In this document: positions 1-10,104 of the stretch, piece by piece
Layout: every line of letters begins with the position of its first letter
Numbering within the stretch: the first letter of the stretch is position 1
NCBI RefSeq assembly: GCF_004335015.1
Contig: NZ_RQRU01000001.1
Coordinates: forward strand, 744,001-808,000
Direction of reading: 5' to 3'
DNA from: Psychrobacter pygoscelis
GTDB lineage: Bacteria; Pseudomonadota; Gammaproteobacteria; Pseudomonadales; Moraxellaceae
Length of the DNA: 64,000 bases
The notes under the pieces: model-generated
What the model was told of the DNA's origin: nothing
Database searches by the model: none
Seen by the model: the letters and a program-made list of their open reading frames with translations, nothing else
Made by a program: the position numbers and the translations under genes

Positions 1-191
1 ATCTGAATGGTTTGGGGTGGTAACTCATTAACCTCAGCACTAGTCTGTGGTAAGTCTAACGGTACAGAAGGGTTCAATACTGTCGCTGTTACCATAAAAA
101 TAATCATCAGTACCAGCATGATATCAATCAAGGGAATGAGATTCATCTCACTCATGTCTTGCATATCATCATTGCCTAAATGAAACGCCAT
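1..191 (-). CDS. exbD: ExbD/TolR-family biopolymer transport protein, truncated by the window edge
   Basis: Reading from an ATG at 191 the protein begins MAFHLGNDDMQDMSEMNLI and continues into one hydrophobic segment (about residues 22-43) with the PLIDIMLVLMIIF pattern typical of ExbD. The aspartate in that helix is the proton-path residue of the family. ExbD is an inner-membrane protein with a periplasmic domain that works with ExbB and TonB to energise outer-membrane receptors. Only about 63 codons are present; the rest lies beyond position 1. It follows exbB by 66 bp on the same strand, so the two are probably co-transcribed and serve the adjacent heme receptor. Family assignment is firm; its role in heme uptake is inferred from position. 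Confidence 0.9.
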   Translation of the reverse strand, partial: MAFHLGNDDMQDMSEMNLIPLIDIMLVLMIIFMVTATVLNPSVPLDLPQTSAEVNELPPQTIQ

Positions 192-257
192 AACCTTCTC
201 CAAAATCTACTATTATAAAAAACCCTAACTCGACTACACCCTGCGTGATTAAATTCT

Positions 258-938
258 TTACGAGTGAGTAGAAGCAGATAAAGGGCTTTCGGTATTTGGC
301 GATTTCACTTTTAAATTATCTGACTGCTTAGCATTATTAAGTACTGGCTGGGCGTTAGTCGAACTTGACTTAACAGTATCAACCTCGCTTTGAATGGACT
401 TACCAAGTAGACCATGAGCTGTATCATGGGCGATATAGAGGGTTTTACGGTTTAAACGCATGGCAATGTTATAAAAGATAACTGCAGGAATAGCGACGGC
501 CAGACCAAGCCCTGTCATAATTAGTGCTTCACCAACGGGTCCGGCGACTTGACCAAGGCCCGCTTGACCGCTCTGACCAATGTTATGCAGTGCATGAAAG
601 ATACCCCAAACTGTACCAAATAGCCCGATAAATGGCGCGATAGCAGCAGTTGTTCCTAGGATAGGTAGACCTTTTTCACCTTGATAGCGGTAGCGGCCAA
701 TATGCTGCATCAAGGTCTGCTCAGTCAATATCTTTCGCTGCTCTATACCGATAGGTGTCCGACTGCCCTGAGCATTAATAACTTGGGTCAAATCGGTTGA
801 GACAGTTTTGGAGAGCTTAATACTATGGATAATTCGAATAATGCCAGTAATCCAAGAGGCAATAGACAGCGCAAATAAGATAAAAAATAAAGATTTGGTT
901 ACGATGTCGGTATATTGCCAATAAGATGCAAAGTCCAT
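258..938 (-). CDS. exbB: ExbB/TolQ-family proton channel protein
   Basis: 226 residues with three hydrophobic segments (about 13-33, 90-115 and 135-157) and the MotA/TolQ/ExbB signature around GLPILGTTAAIAPFIGLFGT and GLGLAVAIPAV. In this family ExbB pentamers surround ExbD in the inner membrane and convert proton flow into TonB motion. The last 40 residues are a polar Ser/Asn-rich tail that the core fold does not need. It is followed by exbD, and a Fur-box-like site lies about 230 bp upstream, in keeping with iron control. It sits downstream of hmuV but is separated from it by 507 bp, so it probably has its own promoter. It could in principle serve other TonB receptors as well. Confidence 0.92.
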   Translation of the reverse strand: MDFASYWQYTDIVTKSLFFILFALSIASWITGIIRIIHSIKLSKTVSTDLTQVINAQGSRTPIGIEQRKILTEQTLMQHIGRYRYQGEKGLPILGTTAAIAPFIGLFGTVWGIFHALHNIGQSGQAGLGQVAGPVGEALIMTGLGLAVAIPAVIFYNIAMRLNRKTLYIAHDTAHGLLGKSIQSEVDTVKSSSTNAQPVLNNAKQSDNLKVKSPNTESPLSASTHS

Positions 939-1445: not shown

Positions 1446-2342
1446 CTACATAAACACCCGGCCACCTTCAGTATCATAAGCATTAATATCTGTCTGATAG
1501 ACCTTACTTAATTGCTGATGGGTCATCACCATGCTAGGACTGCCTTGCGCTACAATTTGACCTTGATCAATCAAAACCACCTCATCACTATAGCGATAAG
1601 CGTGGGTTAAGTCATGCAGCACAACGACAATACTTTTACCAGACTCTTCAACCAGTCGCTTTAAATAACGCAGTAAAAATCGCTGATGACGGATATCTAG
1701 ATGGTTGGTCGGCTCGTCAAACATCAGAATTTCCGTATCTTGCATTAGTGCTCTTACGATAGCTAAGCGCTGCTTTTCACCGCCTGACAGTGTTTGTACT
1801 CGAGCAGTACTTAAAGCCGTTAACTCAAAATCATGAAGTAAATTTTGCGCTTTTTCAAGGTGGTATTGGTTTGGCCGCTGATACCATGACAGTACTGGCG
1901 AAACCCCGAGCAGAGCATACTCAAGTGCTGTAAGCGGTAGCTCAAAGCGCTCGTGCTGCCCGACCCAAGCTATCTTACCACGGCGAATCAGCTGCTCTGA
2001 GCTGACCCATTGAGAGTTATGTAGAGCGTTGGGGTCACCGTTCTCTATCTGCACTGGCATCGCAGCTGTTATTGTTCCTGCTACCGTTAGCCCAGAACCG
2101 ATATGTTGATTAAGAATGGCGTGCAGTAGCGTACTTTTACCTGCCCCATTAGGACCAATAAAAGCCACCAGACTCTGGCTTGGTATCATCAGCTGCTCAA
2201 CCTGAACCAAGATTTTACTGGTCGTGGCAATGCGAACATCATTGAGAGCAAATAAGGTCTTATCCTCACTTACAGTATTCTTACCGACAATACTGCACGC
2301 AGGCATTTCTCTATCCGCAGGTCTATTGGTTAACTTGGACAT
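1446..2342 (-). CDS. hmuV: Heme ABC transporter ATP-binding protein HmuV
   Basis: 298-residue ABC ATPase. Walker A is GPNGAGKSTLL, the signature is LSGGEKQRLAIVRAL, Walker B is ILMFDEPTNHLD, and the H-loop is VVVLHDLTHAYRYSD. This is the arrangement of siderophore/heme importers of the FecE/HmuV type. It hydrolyses ATP on the cytoplasmic face to drive import through HmuU. The N-terminal 30 residues are a loose extension. It follows hmuU by 72 bp on the same strand and closes the run hmuS-hmuT-hmuU-hmuV. Heme as substrate rests on the neighbouring hmuS and the receptor/HmuY pair; on sequence alone vitamin B12 or siderophore ATPases look alike. Confidence 0.92.
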   Translation of the reverse strand: MSKLTNRPADREMPACSIVGKNTVSEDKTLFALNDVRIATTSKILVQVEQLMIPSQSLVAFIGPNGAGKSTLLHAILNQHIGSGLTVAGTITAAMPVQIENGDPNALHNSQWVSSEQLIRRGKIAWVGQHERFELPLTALEYALLGVSPVLSWYQRPNQYHLEKAQNLLHDFELTALSTARVQTLSGGEKQRLAIVRALMQDTEILMFDEPTNHLDIRHQRFLLRYLKRLVEESGKSIVVVLHDLTHAYRYSDEVVLIDQGQIVAQGSPSMVMTHQQLSKVYQTDINAYDTEGGRVFM

Positions 2343-2414: not shown

Positions 2415-3407
2415 TTAAAACTTACTACCGCGAATAAATAGCCAAATAAAAAATGGCCCGCCGATTAAGGCCAACACAATACCGACGGGAACATCAACCG
2501 GATACGCCACATGCCGTGCTAAGCTATCGACGACCAGTAAAAATATCGCCCCAAGCCAGCCTGACCAAATCATCAGCCGCATGCGGCCGCCGCCAAAGAT
2601 AATCGCTAGTAGGTTAGGAATCATCATCCCCACAAAGCCAATAACACCTGCCAGTGACACTGCCGCACCGGTAAGCAGCGCTGAAGCTATGACCACTAAG
2701 GCTCGAGCCATGCCCACACGAATACCTAGCGACATCGCTGTCGTCTCACCCAGCATAAGCCCATCGAGCTGACGCCCTAAAGGCAATAAGATAACAAGTC
2801 CTGCCAGCATCGATATCACCGCGTAACGTAGCGGCACAAAGCCAGCTTCAGCCATACTGCCAGATAGCCAATTGGTCGCGCTGCGCAGTACCATATCATC
2901 AGACATAAATAGCACCAAACTGACTATAGCCGCACAAAAGGCACTAATGACGAAGCCTAATATCAATAACCCCATCTGCCCGCCCCCTAAAAAGCGGTGA
3001 ATGGCTAAAATAAACAAGCAGACAACGACGCTACCAGTAAAAGCAGCGAGCGGTACTCCTACCCCAGAGATACCGAGGGCTAATACTAAAACGACACCTA
3101 GCGCTGCGCCGCCTGAAGTGCCTATCAGACTTGGGTCAGCAAGCGGATTTTCAAACAGTGCTTGCAGCGCAGCCCCGCTAACCGACAAGGCCATTCCGAC
3201 AAGTAGTGCCGTGGCAATCCTTGGATAGCGCAACTGCCAGATGGTCTCATCCAAAGACATGGGATTGGCCCACTCACCAAAGCCTACGCCCAATGCTAGC
3301 CAAATGAGCATCAGCGAAGCGATAGCTGCTAATAGATATCTGCCCATCTGACGATAAACGTTCGATGCCGGCGCTACTTTTACTGAAATCGTTGGGGATA
3401 GGGACAT
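2415..3407 (-). CDS. hmuU: Heme ABC transporter permease HmuU (FecCD family)
   Basis: 330 residues with 8-10 hydrophobic helices, the FecCD/BtuC permease family. Family features are LRYPRIATALLVGMALSVSG near residue 60, the ENPLADPSLIGTSGGAALG loop near 87, and GFVGMMIPNL near 260. It forms the inner-membrane channel as a homodimer and couples to HmuV. It lies between hmuT (147 bp upstream) and hmuV (72 bp downstream). No strong ribosome binding site is visible before the ATG at 3407, but the length agrees with the family. Several overlapping frames on the other strand are shadows of this GC-richer coding region. Confidence 0.92.
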   Translation of the reverse strand: MSLSPTISVKVAPASNVYRQMGRYLLAAIASLMLIWLALGVGFGEWANPMSLDETIWQLRYPRIATALLVGMALSVSGAALQALFENPLADPSLIGTSGGAALGVVLVLALGISGVGVPLAAFTGSVVVCLFILAIHRFLGGGQMGLLILGFVISAFCAAIVSLVLFMSDDMVLRSATNWLSGSMAEAGFVPLRYAVISMLAGLVILLPLGRQLDGLMLGETTAMSLGIRVGMARALVVIASALLTGAAVSLAGVIGFVGMMIPNLLAIIFGGGRMRLMIWSGWLGAIFLLVVDSLARHVAYPVDVPVGIVLALIGGPFFIWLFIRGSKF

Positions 3408-3554: not shown

Positions 3555-4376
3555 TTACTTAGCTAGACTATTGAGTTTTTTGACCACCTGCGGCGAGTCG
3601 AGACCATAGCGCAAGAAATCATTGGCGGGCCAAAAATAGACATGGCCTTTTTTACCAGCCGGGCTAATAGCAACCTCTGGTCGCTGACGGAATTTTGCCA
3701 AACTACCGATGATGGGTTTGTTATGGTCAGCGATAATGATGACGTCAGGCTTGGCCGCGAGCCAGCCCTCTCTTGATAGCGGTTTTAACCCTGATAAGTT
3801 GGCAGCATTGATACCGCCTGCACGGCGAATTAACTCATCACCAACGGTGCCTTTACCTGCGACGATACGACCATCATAGCTAAGTAGATAGCGCTTACCA
3901 GTCTTTGCCATTGGGCTCATTCCCTGCTGCCAACGACGCGCTAACTGATCGGCCTTTTGCGAGGCACCGACGTAGCTGCCAACAGTCTTAATACTCTTAG
4001 CAAAAGTAGCAACATCCTCTTTGGGGGCGACGTTCACAGCCTTGACTTTTAGACCATTAAGACGCTGATAAATACTGGCGGGCTGCACCATATAGCTACC
4101 AAGTACCAAGTCAGGCTTTACCGATAATACGGACTCGGCGGTAATATTGCGGTGCATACCCACCGCTTTGGCTCTTTTAAGCGCAGGGTTGCTATTTAGA
4201 GCATTTTTTCCCACTACCTTATCAGCCTCACCTAATGCGACGACAATATCAGCGACATCAGGACTCATGACGACGATGCGCTCATAGGCTTGTGCAGATA
4301 GGCTAGCCATACCCAGTAAGGCCGCTACTGATACCGAGCGAAAGAGTGATTTTGCAATGAATAAGGTCTGCGCCAT
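3555..4376 (-). CDS. hmuT: Periplasmic heme-binding protein HmuT
   Basis: 273 residues. A signal peptide spans about 1-30, with likely cleavage after SLSAQA. A class III periplasmic binding domain (TroA/BtuF fold) follows, with VVALGEADKVVGK and ESVLSVKPDLVLG. It would carry heme from the outer-membrane receptor to HmuUV. The start is supported by an AAGGA site about 8 nt before the ATG. One point is unusual: the family motif GYMR, whose tyrosine is an axial heme ligand in PhuT/HmuT proteins, reads GMHR here (residues 73-76). Tyrosine is absent and a histidine stands one position later. Substrate is inferred from context. Confidence 0.9.
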   Translation of the reverse strand: MAQTLFIAKSLFRSVSVAALLGMASLSAQAYERIVVMSPDVADIVVALGEADKVVGKNALNSNPALKRAKAVGMHRNITAESVLSVKPDLVLGSYMVQPASIYQRLNGLKVKAVNVAPKEDVATFAKSIKTVGSYVGASQKADQLARRWQQGMSPMAKTGKRYLLSYDGRIVAGKGTVGDELIRRAGGINAANLSGLKPLSREGWLAAKPDVIIIADHNKPIIGSLAKFRQRPEVAISPAGKKGHVYFWPANDFLRYGLDSPQVVKKLNSLAK

Positions 4377-4502: not shown

Positions 4503-5642
4503 TTAAGCAGCATACTTACAGGTCTGCATCAGCTCATCGGTCGTGACTTGCCATTCCCTAAGCTCAGGCTGACCTTCTAGACGCTGACCAAATATGGTCA
4601 AGACACTAGTACCAGACGCATCAAAACCTTCGATGCAGGTCACTACGCCATCTTTAGTGGGGCGCTTGACACACCATACTTGCGCAAGCTCGCGGTCTTT
4701 TAGATGAAGGGTAAAATCAGTATCTTCTTTGTCAAGAATATTAATCCAGTCGCCCATGCGCTTTAATTTAAAGACCTGACCCGTCTGAATCTGCACGACA
4801 CCCGTATTACCTACAAAGATCATAATTGGGCAACCATTATCTCGAACTTGCTCTAACAAAGTCTCCACCGCACTCACTTCTAATTCACAAGCCATCCCCT
4901 CAGGGGCTTGTCGAAAGCTACTTGCCCGATCAATGTCTAGCTTTTCTAATAAAAAATGGAATTGATGCACATCGGTAATATTCTGCCATTCACTCTGTAA
5001 AGTGTTCAGATCTTCATCGTTTAGGGCTTTATATTGCCAAGACTTTTTCTCAATTAACGGTTTTAACTCAATCGTATTTGCGGTAGAGGCAACAGACTGC
5101 ACTTCAGAGGACTGCCGATTTTGAGACTTCTGCCATGCCTGTTTTTGTTGTTCAATAACAGTGTTCCACCGCGCCAGACGCTCCTCAGTAATATCCCTTA
5201 GATACACCTTATTAATCGAATTGCCACTACCATCATAAAACTGAATGCTATAGCTGGGTTTGTCTGGATTGCTCGTGTCACTGACTGCTAACATATGATG
5301 CCACTGGCTCATGAAAAAGCGCAGGTCGAGACCACCGACATTGAGCGCTATCCCCACCTTGTCACCGAGCTTGAGGTTCTTATACTCTCCAAGCTTTTCA
5401 TGTACCGCTAGATCATTTCTGACAATACTCTCAAGTCGGCCAAATGACTCGAACTGCTTAAGGACGACCTTACAATCGCTACCCATATAGTCACTAAAAG
5501 GCGCTGCTAGCATCAGCTCAAGCTCACTTACGCCTAAAGCCCGCGCCCCCTCAGTCGGGAATAACATCCGATCTTGTGCTTTTTTATCCTGATAGTGTTG
5601 CCAAAGGTCACTATTTTTGGTGGTCAGCGAAATCGTCGTCAT
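4503..5642 (-). CDS. hmuS: Cytoplasmic heme-degrading/heme-carrier protein of the HemS/ChuS/HmuS family
   Basis: 379 residues, soluble, two repeated halves as in ChuS/HemS. The first half contains VGIALNVGGLDLRFFMSQW and HHMLAV (about 115-135); the second contains PIMIFVGNTGVVQIQTG and TDFTLHLKDRELAQVWCV. These proteins bind incoming heme in the cytoplasm and either degrade it or pass it on. An AGGAG site 7 nt before the ATG fixes the start. It is the first gene of hmuSTUV and lies divergent from the receptor gene. No Fur-like box was found directly in front of it; the nearest is 540 bp away, beyond a MITE-like insertion. Confidence 0.92.
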   Translation of the reverse strand: MTTISLTTKNSDLWQHYQDKKAQDRMLFPTEGARALGVSELELMLAAPFSDYMGSDCKVVLKQFESFGRLESIVRNDLAVHEKLGEYKNLKLGDKVGIALNVGGLDLRFFMSQWHHMLAVSDTSNPDKPSYSIQFYDGSGNSINKVYLRDITEERLARWNTVIEQQKQAWQKSQNRQSSEVQSVASTANTIELKPLIEKKSWQYKALNDEDLNTLQSEWQNITDVHQFHFLLEKLDIDRASSFRQAPEGMACELEVSAVETLLEQVRDNGCPIMIFVGNTGVVQIQTGQVFKLKRMGDWINILDKEDTDFTLHLKDRELAQVWCVKRPTKDGVVTCIEGFDASGTSVLTIFGQRLEGQPELREWQVTTDELMQTCKYAA

Positions 5643-5766
5643 AAAATCTCCTCAAGTCTATACTGCTCTGTCGGGTACTAGTTACTGGCGTTAGACCAAG
5701 CTAATTATTCATTTGCTTCACTTAGCACACCCCTTTTTATTGGACTAACAATTAGATCGCAAGGGT

Positions 5767-5959
5767 CTAGGGCATGTCCTCAATTAGCTCATAAGGCTTA
5801 AAATGAGATAGGTTTTTGTCAATCAAAGTAACTTTTATAATATAAAAATATTTATAGAGAATATGAAAATATTGTCTGCAATGTTTGCAACGATTGACGG
5901 AAATATAGCTATTTTAGGTGCATTAAACGTTAGTTTTGGCAAGTGAGGACACACCCTAG
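5767..5959. mobile_element. MITE-like element with imperfect terminal inverted repeats in CTAG sites
   Basis: The left end reads CTAGGGCATGTCCTCAATTAG. The right end, read on the other strand, is CTAGGGTGTGTCCTCACTTGC. About 17 of the first 22 bases match. The about 190-bp interior is AT-rich and has no ORF of use. Both ends sit in CTAG, as expected for an element that duplicates a TA target (IS630/Tc1-like behaviour). It lies in the gene-free region 5643-6309, between hmuS and its divergent neighbour. The transposon family is inferred, not recognised. Confidence 0.55.
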
Positions 5960-6051
5960 TCACACCATCAAAAGTATTCCAAATAACAAAAGCGATTTAG
6001 GGAACCGATTTAGCGGACCGACTTTGGGAAGTAAGGCTAACTGAGTCCACG

Positions 6052-6111
6052 CTCGGTCCTTCTTAACTCGGTCCTTCTTAACTCAGTCCTTCTTAACTCG
6101 GTCCTTCTTAA
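6052..6111. repeat. Four tandem copies of a 15-bp unit
   Basis: The unit CTCGGTCCTTCTTAA is repeated four times without gaps (6052-6066, 6067-6081, 6082-6096, 6097-6111). Only the third copy differs, by one base (CTCAGTCC). It lies 72 bp upstream of the Fur-like site in the hmuS-hmuR intergenic region. It is too short and has no spacers, so it is not a CRISPR. Confidence 0.9.
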
Positions 6112-6182
6112 GAATAAGCCTCAGGGTCTTATTATGACCAAACAATATTAACTTGTAAACGATAATAATTATAATTACGTAT

Positions 6183-6197
6183 TGATAACCATTCTCA
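6183..6197 (+). promoter_or_regulatory. Fur box upstream of the heme receptor gene
   Basis: TGATAACCATTCTCA matches the 7-1-7 Fur consensus TGATAATCATTATCA at 13 of 15 positions. It lies 113 bp before the first possible start of the receptor gene and about 300 bp before the likely mature start. This fits iron-repressed expression of the receptor and the HmuY-like gene behind it. Binding is inferred from the match only. Confidence 0.7.
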
Positions 6198-6309
6198 ATA
6201 GTAATAACATAAGTATAGTATTCCAGTAGTATTCCTGCTGCGGTATTAAGAGTGCTTGTTAGCGGTGTTGAATTAACTAACGGCAAGGTGTCTCGCTATC
6301 AGCCCATTA

Positions 6310-8631
6310 GTGCCGCACTTTGACTTACTGCTAGCCATTAATCCGTTACTAATTAACCCTTATTGTTATTCATTTTGGTCGAATACTATTATGCGTCTCA
6401 CTCTATTGTCTTTACTTAATCCTGTTAGCAAAGGGCCGCGCTTATTAGACAGTAGCTATTCACCTATGTTGTGCAAGCCTATGTTCTCATTACCCATAGT
6501 TTCAATACCTACCGTCGCCCCCTCCTTATTCAACACCACTCGTGTAGCGCTTGTCATCTTTAGTGCAGCATGGAGTAGCGCTACTTTAGCCGCTGACAAC
6601 CAGAGTGCCTTTAGTAGTGACCTAGCACAAGTTAATCTTGACCCCATCGTGGTCACTGCCACTCGCTCCAATCGAGCGCTCAGTGATGCGCCTGTTCCTG
6701 TTCAAGTTCTAAGCCAAGATGATCTACAAAAGCATCATGCCCATACCTTAAAACAAGCCATCGCCCTACTGCCCAATGTCTATCTGCGCGAGATTCACGG
6801 TAAGACTGGCTACGAGGTACTGATGCAAGGGTTATCAGGAGATCAGGTGTTGGTACTTATCGATGGCTTGCCCGTAACTGCCAGTACTGGCTCGACAGTC
6901 AATCTCAACCAGTATTTAAATGTTGATATTGCTCAGATTGAAGTCATTCAAGGGGCAGCATCGGCACAATATGGCAGCTCAGCCATGGGCGGGGTTATCA
7001 ATGTCATCACCAAGCCTATCGCCAATAGTAGCGCTCATATTAGCGCCGAGATAGGTAGTAATGGTCGACAAAATCCATCTGAGAAGTCACTAGATGCCAA
7101 TCGTCAATATATTGAAGCCAGTATGGAAGGTGCATTAGATTCAGCTGGCCATATTCGCGCACGGCTATCAGGCTCTTACCTCGATGATGGCGGATTGACA
7201 CTAGATACAGGTGCTTGGCCACGATTAAAAGACGCCAGTGAGCAGTCGCAAATCACTACTAGGCTCTCCTATAGCGCCGACCCTTCGATAGGTAGTAGCC
7301 TTCAGACCGATAAAGGCACTTCCAGCCAACTGTTTAACAACACTCAGCTTTGGGCTGAGGCAAGCCTATACACAGAGGACGACTCGCGGCGCTATAACTA
7401 TTACGCTGCACCACGGTATCTTCCGCAGCAAAAGGATGAGCACATTACCAAGCAGCGTTATAGCGCAGGTGGACGCACCAATATCACACCGACTGGTAAT
7501 GCTGATACGGTTTATCAGCTCTCGGCTTCTGCGCTTTTCGAGAACTATCAGAGCGAGTCTGATACTAGCTCTAAAGGAATTATCACTAGCGCTCGAGATG
7601 CTGATATCACTACCGCCCTTGCTCAGGCTCAGCTTGATCTGCCAATGTGGAGTCCCTCAAGCAGTCCTTTCAAAGACCATACTCATCTCGTGCAAATTGG
7701 CGCTCAATATCAACAAGATACGCTAAGTCAAACTAAAAATGAAGTTAGTGAGCTTATCAAGGATGAAGTCAGTCGTGATGTCGGTGAAGTCTATCTGCAA
7801 GATGACTGGTTTATCGGCGATTCATGGGAGGTCTTGGCTGGGGTTCGCTATCAAGACGACACTGACTTTGGTGGTCATGCCGCTCCTAAAGTGTCGGTAA
7901 AGTATAATCATGTGGATGAGCAAGGTCATGATCATATTTTGCGCGCTAGCGTGGGTAATGGCTACCGAGTACCCAATCTAAAAGAGCGCTACTATGTCTT
8001 TGACCACAGCAACCTAGGCTATAAGGTTATGGGTAATCCAGACTTGCAGCCTGAGACATCAACCAGCTACCAAATCGGCTACTCGGGACAACTAACGGAC
8101 TCCCTGAACCTCAATATCAACGGCTTTTATAACGAGATTGACGACTTAATTCAGACAGACGCAAACCAAGTAACCTATGAAGGGAATATCGCCGTCTATC
8201 ACTATATGAATGTCGATAGTGCTAAGACCCATGGCGTAGATATTGGCATAGATTGGCGCATAACCCCTGAGGCAGTACTTAAGGCCGCCTATACTTATAC
8301 CAAGACTAAAAATGATGCTACAGGTAGTGATCTGACCTTACGCCCCGAGCACAAAGCGCAAGTGTCATTAGACTACCAGCTTACTCCTAAAATTCAGCTG
8401 GTTGAGCAAGTGAACTATGAGGGCAAGCAGCTCGTCAATAGTGCAAACCAGAGCTACTCGCCTGCTTGGTGGTCACTCGATAGTAAGCTTAATTATCAAG
8501 TTGATAAGCATATCAATATCTATGCAGGGGTTAATAATGTATTTGATGTACAACGCGACCCCGCTGATAGCAGTGACTACCGTCCTATAGATAACCGTGA
8601 ATGGCTACTCGGTGCCAGCTATCACTGGTAG
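6310..8631 (+). CDS. hmuR: TonB-dependent heme receptor, HmuR-like
   Basis: The open frame gives up to 773 residues from a GTG at 6310. Later ATGs at 6391, 6466 and 6481 are better candidates, because the h-region VALVIFSAAWSSATLAA is at residues about 78-94; from 6481 this is a normal signal peptide. A TonB box, DPIVVTATRS, follows, then the plug (LIDGLPV, IEVIQGAASAQYGSSAMGGVINVITK) and a 22-strand barrel ending in aromatic YHW. The barrel carries YRVPNLKERYYVFDH and GNPDLQPE. These correspond to the YRAP and NPDL boxes and intervening histidine reported for Porphyromonas HmuR; the usual gammaproteobacterial form is FRAP/NPNL. A HmuY-like lipoprotein gene follows by 116 bp, and a Fur box lies upstream. 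Receptor identity is firm, heme specificity likely. Confidence 0.88.
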   Translation: MPHFDLLLAINPLLINPYCYSFWSNTIMRLTLLSLLNPVSKGPRLLDSSYSPMLCKPMFSLPIVSIPTVAPSLFNTTRVALVIFSAAWSSATLAADNQSAFSSDLAQVNLDPIVVTATRSNRALSDAPVPVQVLSQDDLQKHHAHTLKQAIALLPNVYLREIHGKTGYEVLMQGLSGDQVLVLIDGLPVTASTGSTVNLNQYLNVDIAQIEVIQGAASAQYGSSAMGGVINVITKPIANSSAHISAEIGSNGRQNPSEKSLDANRQYIEASMEGALDSAGHIRARLSGSYLDDGGLTLDTGAWPRLKDASEQSQITTRLSYSADPSIGSSLQTDKGTSSQLFNNTQLWAEASLYTEDDSRRYNYYAAPRYLPQQKDEHITKQRYSAGGRTNITPTGNADTVYQLSASALFENYQSESDTSSKGIITSARDADITTALAQAQLDLPMWSPSSSPFKDHTHLVQIGAQYQQDTLSQTKNEVSELIKDEVSRDVGEVYLQDDWFIGDSWEVLAGVRYQDDTDFGGHAAPKVSVKYNHVDEQGHDHILRASVGNGYRVPNLKERYYVFDHSNLGYKVMGNPDLQPETSTSYQIGYSGQLTDSLNLNINGFYNEIDDLIQTDANQVTYEGNIAVYHYMNVDSAKTHGVDIGIDWRITPEAVLKAAYTYTKTKNDATGSDLTLRPEHKAQVSLDYQLTPKIQLVEQVNYEGKQLVNSANQSYSPAWWSLDSKLNYQVDKHINIYAGVNNVFDVQRDPADSSDYRPIDNREWLLGASYHW

Positions 8632-8747
8632 CTTATTAGTACCCTATATCTGGTTTGCAGCCCGCAAGATTAAGCACAGAATTCGAGATTTACCGCTTAC
8701 ATTCTCTTAAAACATAACACAAAGTCAACACTTATAAGGAAACCCCA

Positions 8748-10025
8748 ATGACCTCACAAACTTCAACTTTAACCACTAAGCCGGTCACTACCATCTTTAG
8801 CGCACATCGATTAGCGTTTGCCATATCTACGAGCCTATTATCTTTAAGCCTTATTGGTTGTGGCGGTGATGGTGGCAGTAGCGCTACAGGCGGTAATGCA
8901 GACACCAATAAAGATGGCGGTACGCCAGCACAAATGAGCTTTAGTGAGACGGCCACATGGTCTATTGACAGTACAACACCAGGTACTAGCTGCTATGATT
9001 TTGATGCTCAAAGTGAAGTTAGCTGTGATAGCGCCGTATGGGATTTAAAGTTTGATAACCAAGCTCGCTCGGTAAACCTTTGGTCAAATAGCGGTGTCAG
9101 TGGCGATGGTAAAGGCGGCGTATTCGGCCTAATGGACTGGTCAGCACTCAAAAAATATACCAATGCAACCATAGACCCAGACTCTGGTCGTGATATCAGC
9201 TCGCACTATCGTATGGATAAAAGCGCTGGTGTCTTTAAGGATAAGCCATGGTATGAGTACAACCTTCAAGACCGCCATCTTCTCTATCCCAATAACCGCG
9301 TTTATCTTGTCACCACCGATAACAGTGATGCTAGCACTGTCAGTACCGTCAATCGCCCTGTCTATGCGCTACAAGTCATTAACTACTATAATGATGTCGC
9401 TACCTCAGGCTTCCCGACGCTGCGGTGGATAAATACCGCACTGCCAACACAGGTCCAGACTAAGACCTTTGACGCTTCTTCATCTGATAGTTGGGTGTAT
9501 ATCAATCTTGCATCTGGCGAGACGACTAGCAAAGATGGCGACTGGCAGGTTGGACTTCGTCGCAACAATCTGATCCTAAATAGCGGCGACTCGGGCAGTG
9601 GTAAGGTTGGTGGTTATGTTGCTAAGACCCCAGCGGGATTCTGTGATGAGAGCGGCGCACCAATTACTAGCAAATTTATCACTGATAATTCAGCGTCAAC
9701 CTTAAGTGATCTGACTGATACAGCGAATTATCAGGTATCAGCCGATGGCGTACCTTGGATTGTCGATCAAAAAAGCTCTAATCTAAACCCTGGCTATTCG
9801 GGTAACTTCCCTATGCTTGATTATGGCTGGTATACCTATAATGGTAACAACCATATATTAACTGCCAAACCTATCGATACGGCGAAAGGCGCGCTTGTAC
9901 GCTCGGCTGAAGGCAATAGCTATGCTCGGATTCGCTTAGATGAGATCGTCTACGCTAATCCTAATGTGCTTGCTGCCACTAAATGGGTATATAAACTGGA
10001 TATTCAGCCAGCTCCTAAAAAATAG
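8748..10025 (+). CDS. HmuY-like heme-binding lipoprotein with two tandem HmuY domains
   Basis: 425 residues; AAGGA sits 8 nt before the ATG. The lipobox LSLIGC puts the lipidated cysteine at residue 38, followed by a Gly/Ser linker. Two homologous domains follow. Domain 1 (about 65-238) has CYDFDA, VWDLKFD, SGVSGDGKGG, then WYEYN, VYALQVINYY and TLRW. Domain 2 (about 240-425) has SDSWVYINLASGETT, DWQVGLRRNNLILNSG, SGSGKVGGY, then YGWYTYNGNNHIL, YARIRLDEIVY and KWVYKLDIQ. These are the N- and C-terminal signatures of HmuY proteins, which capture heme at the cell surface. It probably hands heme to the adjacent receptor. I infer the fold from motifs; axial ligands cannot be named from sequence alone. 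Confidence 0.8.
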   Translation: MTSQTSTLTTKPVTTIFSAHRLAFAISTSLLSLSLIGCGGDGGSSATGGNADTNKDGGTPAQMSFSETATWSIDSTTPGTSCYDFDAQSEVSCDSAVWDLKFDNQARSVNLWSNSGVSGDGKGGVFGLMDWSALKKYTNATIDPDSGRDISSHYRMDKSAGVFKDKPWYEYNLQDRHLLYPNNRVYLVTTDNSDASTVSTVNRPVYALQVINYYNDVATSGFPTLRWINTALPTQVQTKTFDASSSDSWVYINLASGETTSKDGDWQVGLRRNNLILNSGDSGSGKVGGYVAKTPAGFCDESGAPITSKFITDNSASTLSDLTDTANYQVSADGVPWIVDQKSSNLNPGYSGNFPMLDYGWYTYNGNNHILTAKPIDTAKGALVRSAEGNSYARIRLDEIVYANPNVLAATKWVYKLDIQPAPKK

Positions 10026-10072: not shown

Positions 10073-10104
10073 AAGCCCTAGTCCAACGATGTGGATTAGG
10101 GCTT
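10073..10104. terminator. Bidirectional hairpin between the HmuY-like gene and the transglutaminase gene
   Basis: AAGCCCTAGTCCA pairs with TGGATTAGGGCTT around a 6-nt loop. Runs of A precede it, and moderately T-rich sequence follows. It lies between two genes that converge, so it can serve both. Confidence 0.75.

Follow-up and report, generated by a model that had tools for sequence, protein, structure and literature searches.

A probable HmuR/HmuY-type heme-capture pair in Psychrobacter, with a two-domain lipoprotein of reversed domain order

In a stretch of 64,000 nucleotides from the genome of Psychrobacter pygoscelis (assembly GCF_004335015.1, contig NZ_RQRU01000001.1, positions 744,001 to 808,000; this whole stretch is called the window, and positions are counted from its first letter), a gene for a TonB-dependent receptor is followed by a gene for an HmuY-family lipoprotein. 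We propose, with a probability of roughly three in four (about 0.77), that the two genes encode a heme-capture pair of the HmuR/HmuY type, in which the lipoprotein consists of two HmuY-related domains in the order B then A, and which stands beside an importer with a separate history. The pair comprises the following features:

6391..8631, + strand: hmuR-like TonB-dependent receptor with Pfam barrel and plug; the reading frame is open from GTG 6310
7963..7974, + strand: YRVP box of the receptor
8035..8046, + strand: NPDL box of the receptor
8748..10025, + strand: hmuY-like two-domain lipoprotein, 425 amino acids (aa), by PF14064 and our own domain models
8748..8861, + strand: signal peptide and lipobox ending at Cys38 (LIGC), read by eye
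8931..9443, + strand: domain B, residues 62-232, diverged HmuY type, with Cys82, Cys93 and His177; own model
9444..10022, + strand: domain A, residues 233-425, plain HmuY, with His369; own model and PF14064

The initial annotation of this DNA described a lipoprotein with HmuY signatures, and profile comparison confirms this identity. The search of 8748-10025 against the HmuY profile, proposed there as a check, gave a significant match to Pfam HmuY (PF14064; E = 1.1e-11, 45.5 bits, cut-off 27) that is limited to residues 246-410; in NCBIfam there was no match at E up to 0.1. A six-frame search at E up to 0.001 returned this single HmuY match in the organism's own genome and none in 14 control genomes, and HmuY occurs in 8 of 36 genomes of the genus and 14 of 369 genomes of the class, the own genome being included in both counts. 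The LIGC motif with Cys38 is lipobox-like by eye, and Cys38-Gly39 is invariant in 17 aligned rows with the B-A order. A structure model, which the initial annotation had suggested as a way to reveal a different fold, leads back to the same family: the eight best entries for the full-length prediction are all HmuY-family structures (Z 9.1-11.8), with Porphyromonas gingivalis HmuY 3h8t at the top (Z 11.8, root-mean-square deviation 3.4, 145 aligned) and 4ei0 next after the eight (Z 7.8). The model itself is of low confidence, with a predicted local distance difference test score (pLDDT) of 65, a predicted template-modelling score (pTM) of 0.50 and a Foldseek template-modelling (TM) score for 3h8t of at most 0.30.

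As judged from its sequence, the lipoprotein is a fusion of two HmuY-related domains, B then A; the initial annotation overlooked both the second domain and the reversed order. To label the domains we used hidden Markov models (HMMs) built solely from 11 A-B proteins, that is, from relatives with the opposite layout. These assign the N-terminal half to B (residues 72-228, 161.5 bits, the best A score there being 4.2) and the C-terminal half to A (residues 245-407, 88.4 bits, the best B score there being 5.0). Domain A of the window alone scores 42.7 bits against PF14064. Profiles of the A and B domains were each drawn from 32 of 79 domains, and among these all 32 A domains match Pfam HmuY at E up to 0.1 (best 4.5e-15), as do 18 of the 32 B domains (best 9.4e-10), the window's own B being without a match. 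The A profile finds 3h8t at 6.8e-17, spanning nearly the full length; the B profile finds the HmuY-family structures 8b6a (6e-7), 8b61 (2.4e-5) and 3h8t (7.8e-5); and hhalign relates domain A to domain B at 96.7%. By these profile comparisons, domain B is a diverged homologue of HmuY domain A. Two cysteines of domain B, Cys82 and Cys93, are each kept in 76/79 proteins. One histidine per domain is conserved, His177 of B in 62/79 and His369 of A in 60/79, and no counterpart of P. gingivalis His134 was secured. The gap between the two HMM matches is short in both orders, with a median of 2 residues in A-B and 7 in B-A proteins.

Other arrangements also exist in the family. Among 24 proteins read in the family search were an A-A protein (locus L039) and two PKD fusions with one HmuY domain (L038, 11995-14334, 779 aa; L041, 8096-10384, 762 aa). 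Some A-B proteins (512-525 aa) carry a C-terminal extension of about 125 residues that has no Pfam match at E 0.001 (L049, 9335-10888; L112, 8284-9858; L118, 2519-4054) and resembles cupredoxin by eye.

To place the order in a wider context, one genome per species was scanned with a B-domain pattern across 84,980 species, which gave 82 stretches, 76 of them confirmed; two of the four Cupriavidus records from a tblastn search bring the total to 78 loci. Because the scan required the B-domain pattern, proteins without B could not turn up. The order is A-B in 51 loci and B-A in 27, the latter comprising 20 from Psychrobacter and seven from betaproteobacteria (two Chitiniphilus, Comamonas badia, two Burkholderiales metagenome-assembled genomes and two Cupriavidus). 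By record title, the A-B loci belong chiefly to gammaproteobacteria (Marinobacter, Alcanivorax and others), together with three metagenome-assembled genomes of Nitrospirota. The receptor tree (67 rows including the window, six of 72 adjacent receptors being left out as shorter than 600 aa) unites the B-A rows in one clade within the A-B rows (24/67 rows, support 100/99). The lipoprotein tree, with the domains set in a fixed order and 19 of 79 proteins left out as near-copies or as cut or partial, likewise contains a single B-A clade within the A-B rows (17/60 rows, 100/100). Hence, a single reordering explains the B-A order, and we show from these phylogenies that the reversal is confined to one clade. 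In the receptor tree, the rows closest to the window's receptor are themselves from Psychrobacter. The nearest kin of the Psychrobacter pair in both trees, which were built without Bacteroidota rows, are betaproteobacterial, then gammaproteobacterial. When plasmids were searched by tblastn, the lipoprotein was found in Cupriavidus only (4 records), and no Bacteroidota appeared for the receptor among the 50 of 99 records listed.

It is very improbable that the B-A order is convergent, or that two similar domains were mislabelled, instead of there having been one reordering. Domains A and B are homologous, so that their labels could in principle blur, and the scan used only one L-group pattern in B. 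Against this stand HMM margins above 80 bits in the window protein, and a single-domain tree drawn from 26 of the 79 loci (52 rows) in which A and B separate at 100/100 regardless of order and the B-A sets form single clades (100/100 and 98/94); the receptor and lipoprotein trees, moreover, each need one change. The change to B-A would have happened a single time, in an ancestor shared by the Psychrobacter and betaproteobacterial forms, and we infer that the simplest route would be a tandem duplication of an A-B gene, after which the two outermost domains were lost (ABAB to BA).

The two fused domains may act as a built-in pair, comparable to the dimer of HmuY; the P. gingivalis protein is dimeric when heme is absent and tetrameric when it is bound (PMC2671838). 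It is possible, though doubtful, that the proteobacterial HmuY is an interlocked, two-lobed protein with a dimer built in, where each domain begins a fold that the last strands of the other domain complete, the start of B with the end of A and the start of A with the end of B, and where each lobe is a single HmuY-type fold. If this were true, the A-B and B-A proteins would be related by natural circular permutation of a closed structure, and this would account for a single reversal of order that left the partnership with the receptor intact. In the full model, the alignments with HmuY entries all run from the beginning of B (near residue 64) to the last residues of A (near 422), as if the end of A completed the start of B, although only the limits of each alignment are given and the model has low confidence. 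Domain B modelled alone (pLDDT 77.3, pTM 0.52) matches HmuY over model residues 3-106 only, below the clear level (best Z 6.7, 88 aligned), and its best Foldseek entry is 8b6a (E 6.7e-3, TM 0.28). Covariation was calculated from 79 sequences with an effective number of 50, and is suggestive at most. In the full set, and likewise in the A-B set, the antiparallel pairing A415-B71 takes second place among the strand pairings that link the two domains. Counting against strand exchange, it falls outside the top eight in the B-A set (effective number 10), and there is no overall enrichment: among the top 50, 100 and 200 pairs, those between the end of A and the start of B reach 0.83-1.08 of expectation, and those between the start of A and the end of B reach 0.54-0.72. 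The pairing that ranks first, A365-B226, is parallel and unexplained.

The receptor frame (6310-8631, + strand) encodes 773 aa from GTG; the ATG at 6391, which gives 746 aa, is judged by eye to be the likelier start. It matches the Pfam barrel (PF00593, 9e-52) and plug (PF07715, 7.2e-22) and has the features of HmuR, being TonB-dependent with YRxP and NPDL boxes and two histidines. The initial annotation had taken the YRVP and NPDL boxes as the HmuR form; both are indeed present, but NPDL is not diagnostic, as it occurs in 28/67 related receptors compared with 61/67 for YRVP. His143 and His566 (numbered in the 773-aa frame) are each kept in 65/67 aligned receptors, and may be equivalent to the two histidines of P. 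gingivalis HmuR. His566 sits between the two boxes, and HemR-type receptors likewise place one histidine there (PMC3832793). In three Psychrobacter stretches the receptor is split into two reading frames (L053, 7913-10051; L154, 7092-9203; L152, 10448-12664), L053 and L154 being without a visible hmuY, and in two Psychrobacter genomes without hmuY a second TonB-dependent receptor lies directly behind the first (L053, 10135-12351; L054, 7553-9709).

In the window, the receptor and lipoprotein genes are separated by 116 bases, and we show by gene neighbourhood that a receptor of the same kind lies directly upstream of the lipoprotein in 72/78 loci; five of the remaining six have a lipoprotein frame that starts within 450 bases of a contig end. 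A HemS-type homologue is present in 53/78 related loci, within the stretch examined. Of 60 genomes of the genus, 19 have HemS, 18 have the receptor (E 1e-40) and 16 have the lipoprotein (E 1e-5); all 18 receptor-bearing genomes have HemS, and genome G035 has HemS without the receptor. The sixth unpaired locus, from Psychrobacter celer (L065), is without the receptor, hmuS, hmuT and part of hmuU, and on its contig (L028/L065, 3281-5081) hmuY adjoins a 131-aa piece of hmuU.

Whereas the nearest kin of the pair are betaproteobacterial, in the tree of the importer's permease the 12 rows from Psychrobacter form a group with those of three further genomes of Moraxellaceae (100/100, stem 3.83), and the permeases beside the betaproteobacterial pairs are placed far from those of Psychrobacter. 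The first permease tree had 44 rows, with 12 listed loci and short permeases left out, and the second had 47, after removal of six near-copies and addition of nine rows; L109, L111 and L113 form long branches in these trees. The trees of the pair and of the permease are discordant, and thus the pair and the importer have different histories. We had also considered the receptor, lipoprotein and importer as one old travelling unit, and dropped this idea because of the discordant permease trees. No other permease match was found at E 1e-60 in 369 genomes of the class, and the best 15 of 1329 plasmid records are all under 40% identical. The 20-kb stretches of the three non-Psychrobacter genomes in the permease group (L155-L157) have hmuSTUV and no HmuY; in a fourth Moraxellaceae genome (G474, L158) the importer is of a different type. 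In L156 (10902-17792), a TonB-dependent receptor, a prolyl-oligopeptidase-like protein, a ChaN-type heme-binding protein and an Lcl_C lipoprotein lie beside hmuSTUV of the Psychrobacter type, and L157 (2888-9751) has the same gene set, its receptor and peptidase being recognised by position and length only. The pair seems, from these trees and stretches, to be a later partner of an importer whose lineage appears here in Moraxellaceae alone. The initial annotation had pictured a surface capture step added to a proteobacterial importer; the differing histories are in line with this idea, while heme capture itself is something we infer.

The importer and the regions flanking the pair contain the following features:

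4503..5642, - strand: hmuS, HemS/ChuX-family protein (PF05171, 1.3e-55; PF06228, 1e-47)
3555..4376, - strand: hmuT, periplasmic binding protein (PF01497, 9.5e-32)
2415..3407, - strand: hmuU, FecCD permease (PF01032, 2.6e-74; permease tree)
1446..2342, - strand: hmuV, ABC ATPase (PF00005, 1e-23)
258..938, - strand: ExbB (PF01618, 2.8e-28)
1..203, - strand: ExbD, start of the gene, the rest lying beyond the window edge (PF02472, 9.2e-33 on the continuation past the edge)
6161..6196, no strand: two overlapping Fur-like sites, 15/19 and 14/19, by consensus match
6148..6175, + strand: sigma-70-like promoter match, 10/12, overlapping a Fur-like site, by consensus match only
10073..10104, + strand: terminator-like hairpin 3' of hmuY, 13 pairs, 6 G-C, by pattern match only

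The receptor and lipoprotein genes face right (+), and hmuSTUV, exbB and exbD face left (-). A divergent layout also occurs in L109 and L113, so that the layout alone proves nothing. The Fur-like sites named in the initial annotation lie between the two gene sets: the best agrees at 15/19 positions with GATAATGATAATCATTATC (6161-6179), and the overlapping one at 14/19 (6178-6196). When the region 5643-6400 was imitated 500 times with a first-order Markov model, the best site reached 15 in 5 imitations and 14 in 20. The divergent intergenic region may be under the control of Fur. Just 5' of these sites and of the receptor gene, at 6052-6111, are four head-to-tail copies of the 15-base unit CTCGGTCCTTCTTAA, with 95% matches.

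By analogy with P. gingivalis HmuY, the lipoprotein would bind heme or porphyrin at the cell surface, where it would be displayed, and would pass heme to the TonB-dependent receptor; ExbBD would supply the energy for this uptake, and heme would then enter the cytoplasm by way of HmuTUV, encoded divergently, and HmuS of the HemS type. Several observations weigh against a heme-capture pair with this history. In three of the 60 genomes of the genus (G001, G426 and G023, the last with a broken receptor frame) the receptor and HemS occur but no lipoprotein reaches E 1e-5, and one (G020) has the lipoprotein without receptor or HemS; the receptors of G001 and G426 fall, weakly placed, among lipoprotein-paired receptors, which fits loss of the lipoprotein there. 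The receptor scores 185.4 bits against TIGR01785 ('TonB-hemin'), under the curated cut-off of 316.85, and is not filed in that subfamily, and among solved structures CirA and BtuB outrank the heme receptors PhuR and ShuA as its matches. Three Moraxellaceae rows from outside Psychrobacter nest inside the Psychrobacter permease rows (95/85), so that the permease tree does not resolve the order of events within the family, and hmuS occurs in only 15/149 genomes of the family, four of them from other genera, and is thus not a universal trait of Moraxellaceae. The heme ligands of P. gingivalis HmuY, His134 and His166, are not conserved across the HmuY family (PMC6200708), and protoporphyrin is preferred by some of its proteins, while others bind neither ligand (PMC12106395).

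In another view, the protein has the HmuY fold but carries free protoporphyrin or another tetrapyrrole in place of heme, or is a mere lid on the receptor, as BtuG is on BtuB. The best profile relatives of domain B are indeed 8b6a, which prefers protoporphyrin, and 8b61, which binds neither (ligands from PMC12106395), and the permease, binding protein and receptor also score against models of B12 systems. We nevertheless consider this unlikely, given that the cytoplasmic partner is of the HemS/ChuX type, with its homologue in most of the related loci, that the receptor keeps two near-invariant histidines, and that one histidine is kept in each domain of the lipoprotein. The lipoprotein could also face the periplasm and hand heme from the receptor to HmuT instead of capturing it outside. 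The lipoprotein-export signal of Bacteroidota is not known from gammaproteobacteria, and the three full Slam-type genes of the genome all lie outside the window. A periplasmic carrier is improbable in our judgement, as HmuY of P. gingivalis resides on the outer membrane or is released, and the HmuR/HmuY and HpuB/HpuA pairs act at the surface (PMC3832793).

The arrangement in Psychrobacter resembles P. gingivalis HmuY/HmuR (hmuYRSTUV) in that a gene for a lipoprotein of the HmuY fold lies beside a TonB-dependent receptor with two histidines and NPDL, with hmuSTUV alongside. It differs in that P. gingivalis has one HmuY domain and Psychrobacter two; hmuY precedes hmuR there and follows the receptor gene here; and the importer genes of Psychrobacter point away from the pair and have a descent different from it. 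HmuS, of the HemS/ChuX type in Psychrobacter, is a de-chelatase of the CobN/chelatase type in P. gingivalis (PMC12583661, PMC3832793). No HmuY lipoprotein is known from the Yersinia HmuRSTUV/HemRSTUV or Pseudomonas PhuR-PhuSTUVW systems. Those systems resemble ours in that an STUV importer accompanies a receptor with FRAP/NPNL-type boxes, which Fur controls there (PMC3832793) and may control here. The initial annotation highlighted HmuY in a gammaproteobacterium; it is right that the family is known mainly from Bacteroidota, but contiguous HmuY/HmuR pairs were reported in delta-Proteobacteria in 2009 (PMC2671838), gamma- and delta-Proteobacteria appeared in an HmuY tree in 2013 (PMC3699645), and two HmuY clades almost exclusively of Proteobacteria were described in 2018 (PMC6200708). 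The Psychrobacter protein is like these homologues in belonging to the same family outside Bacteroidota. In the available parts of these three papers, supplementary trees aside, we found no mention of a two-domain or reversed-order form, and 'tandem' in PMC2671838 refers to genes in tandem. A two-domain or circularly permuted HmuY was likewise not found in the literature, a coverage that left most subscription papers and all supplements outside; nothing was found there on TonB-dependent heme uptake in Psychrobacter, and nothing relevant on HmuY together with Psychrobacter.

HmuY outside Bacteroidota is thus already known, and what the window adds is the two-domain form with reversed order. The HmuR/HmuY heme-capture idea gains from it a defined proteobacterial form with two domains, in organisms that can be cultured (Psychrobacter, Cupriavidus, Marinobacter, Comamonas), and the window offers an example of a capture pair and an importer of unlike ancestry side by side. 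It also provides a natural experiment on domain reordering in a lipoprotein that partners a receptor.

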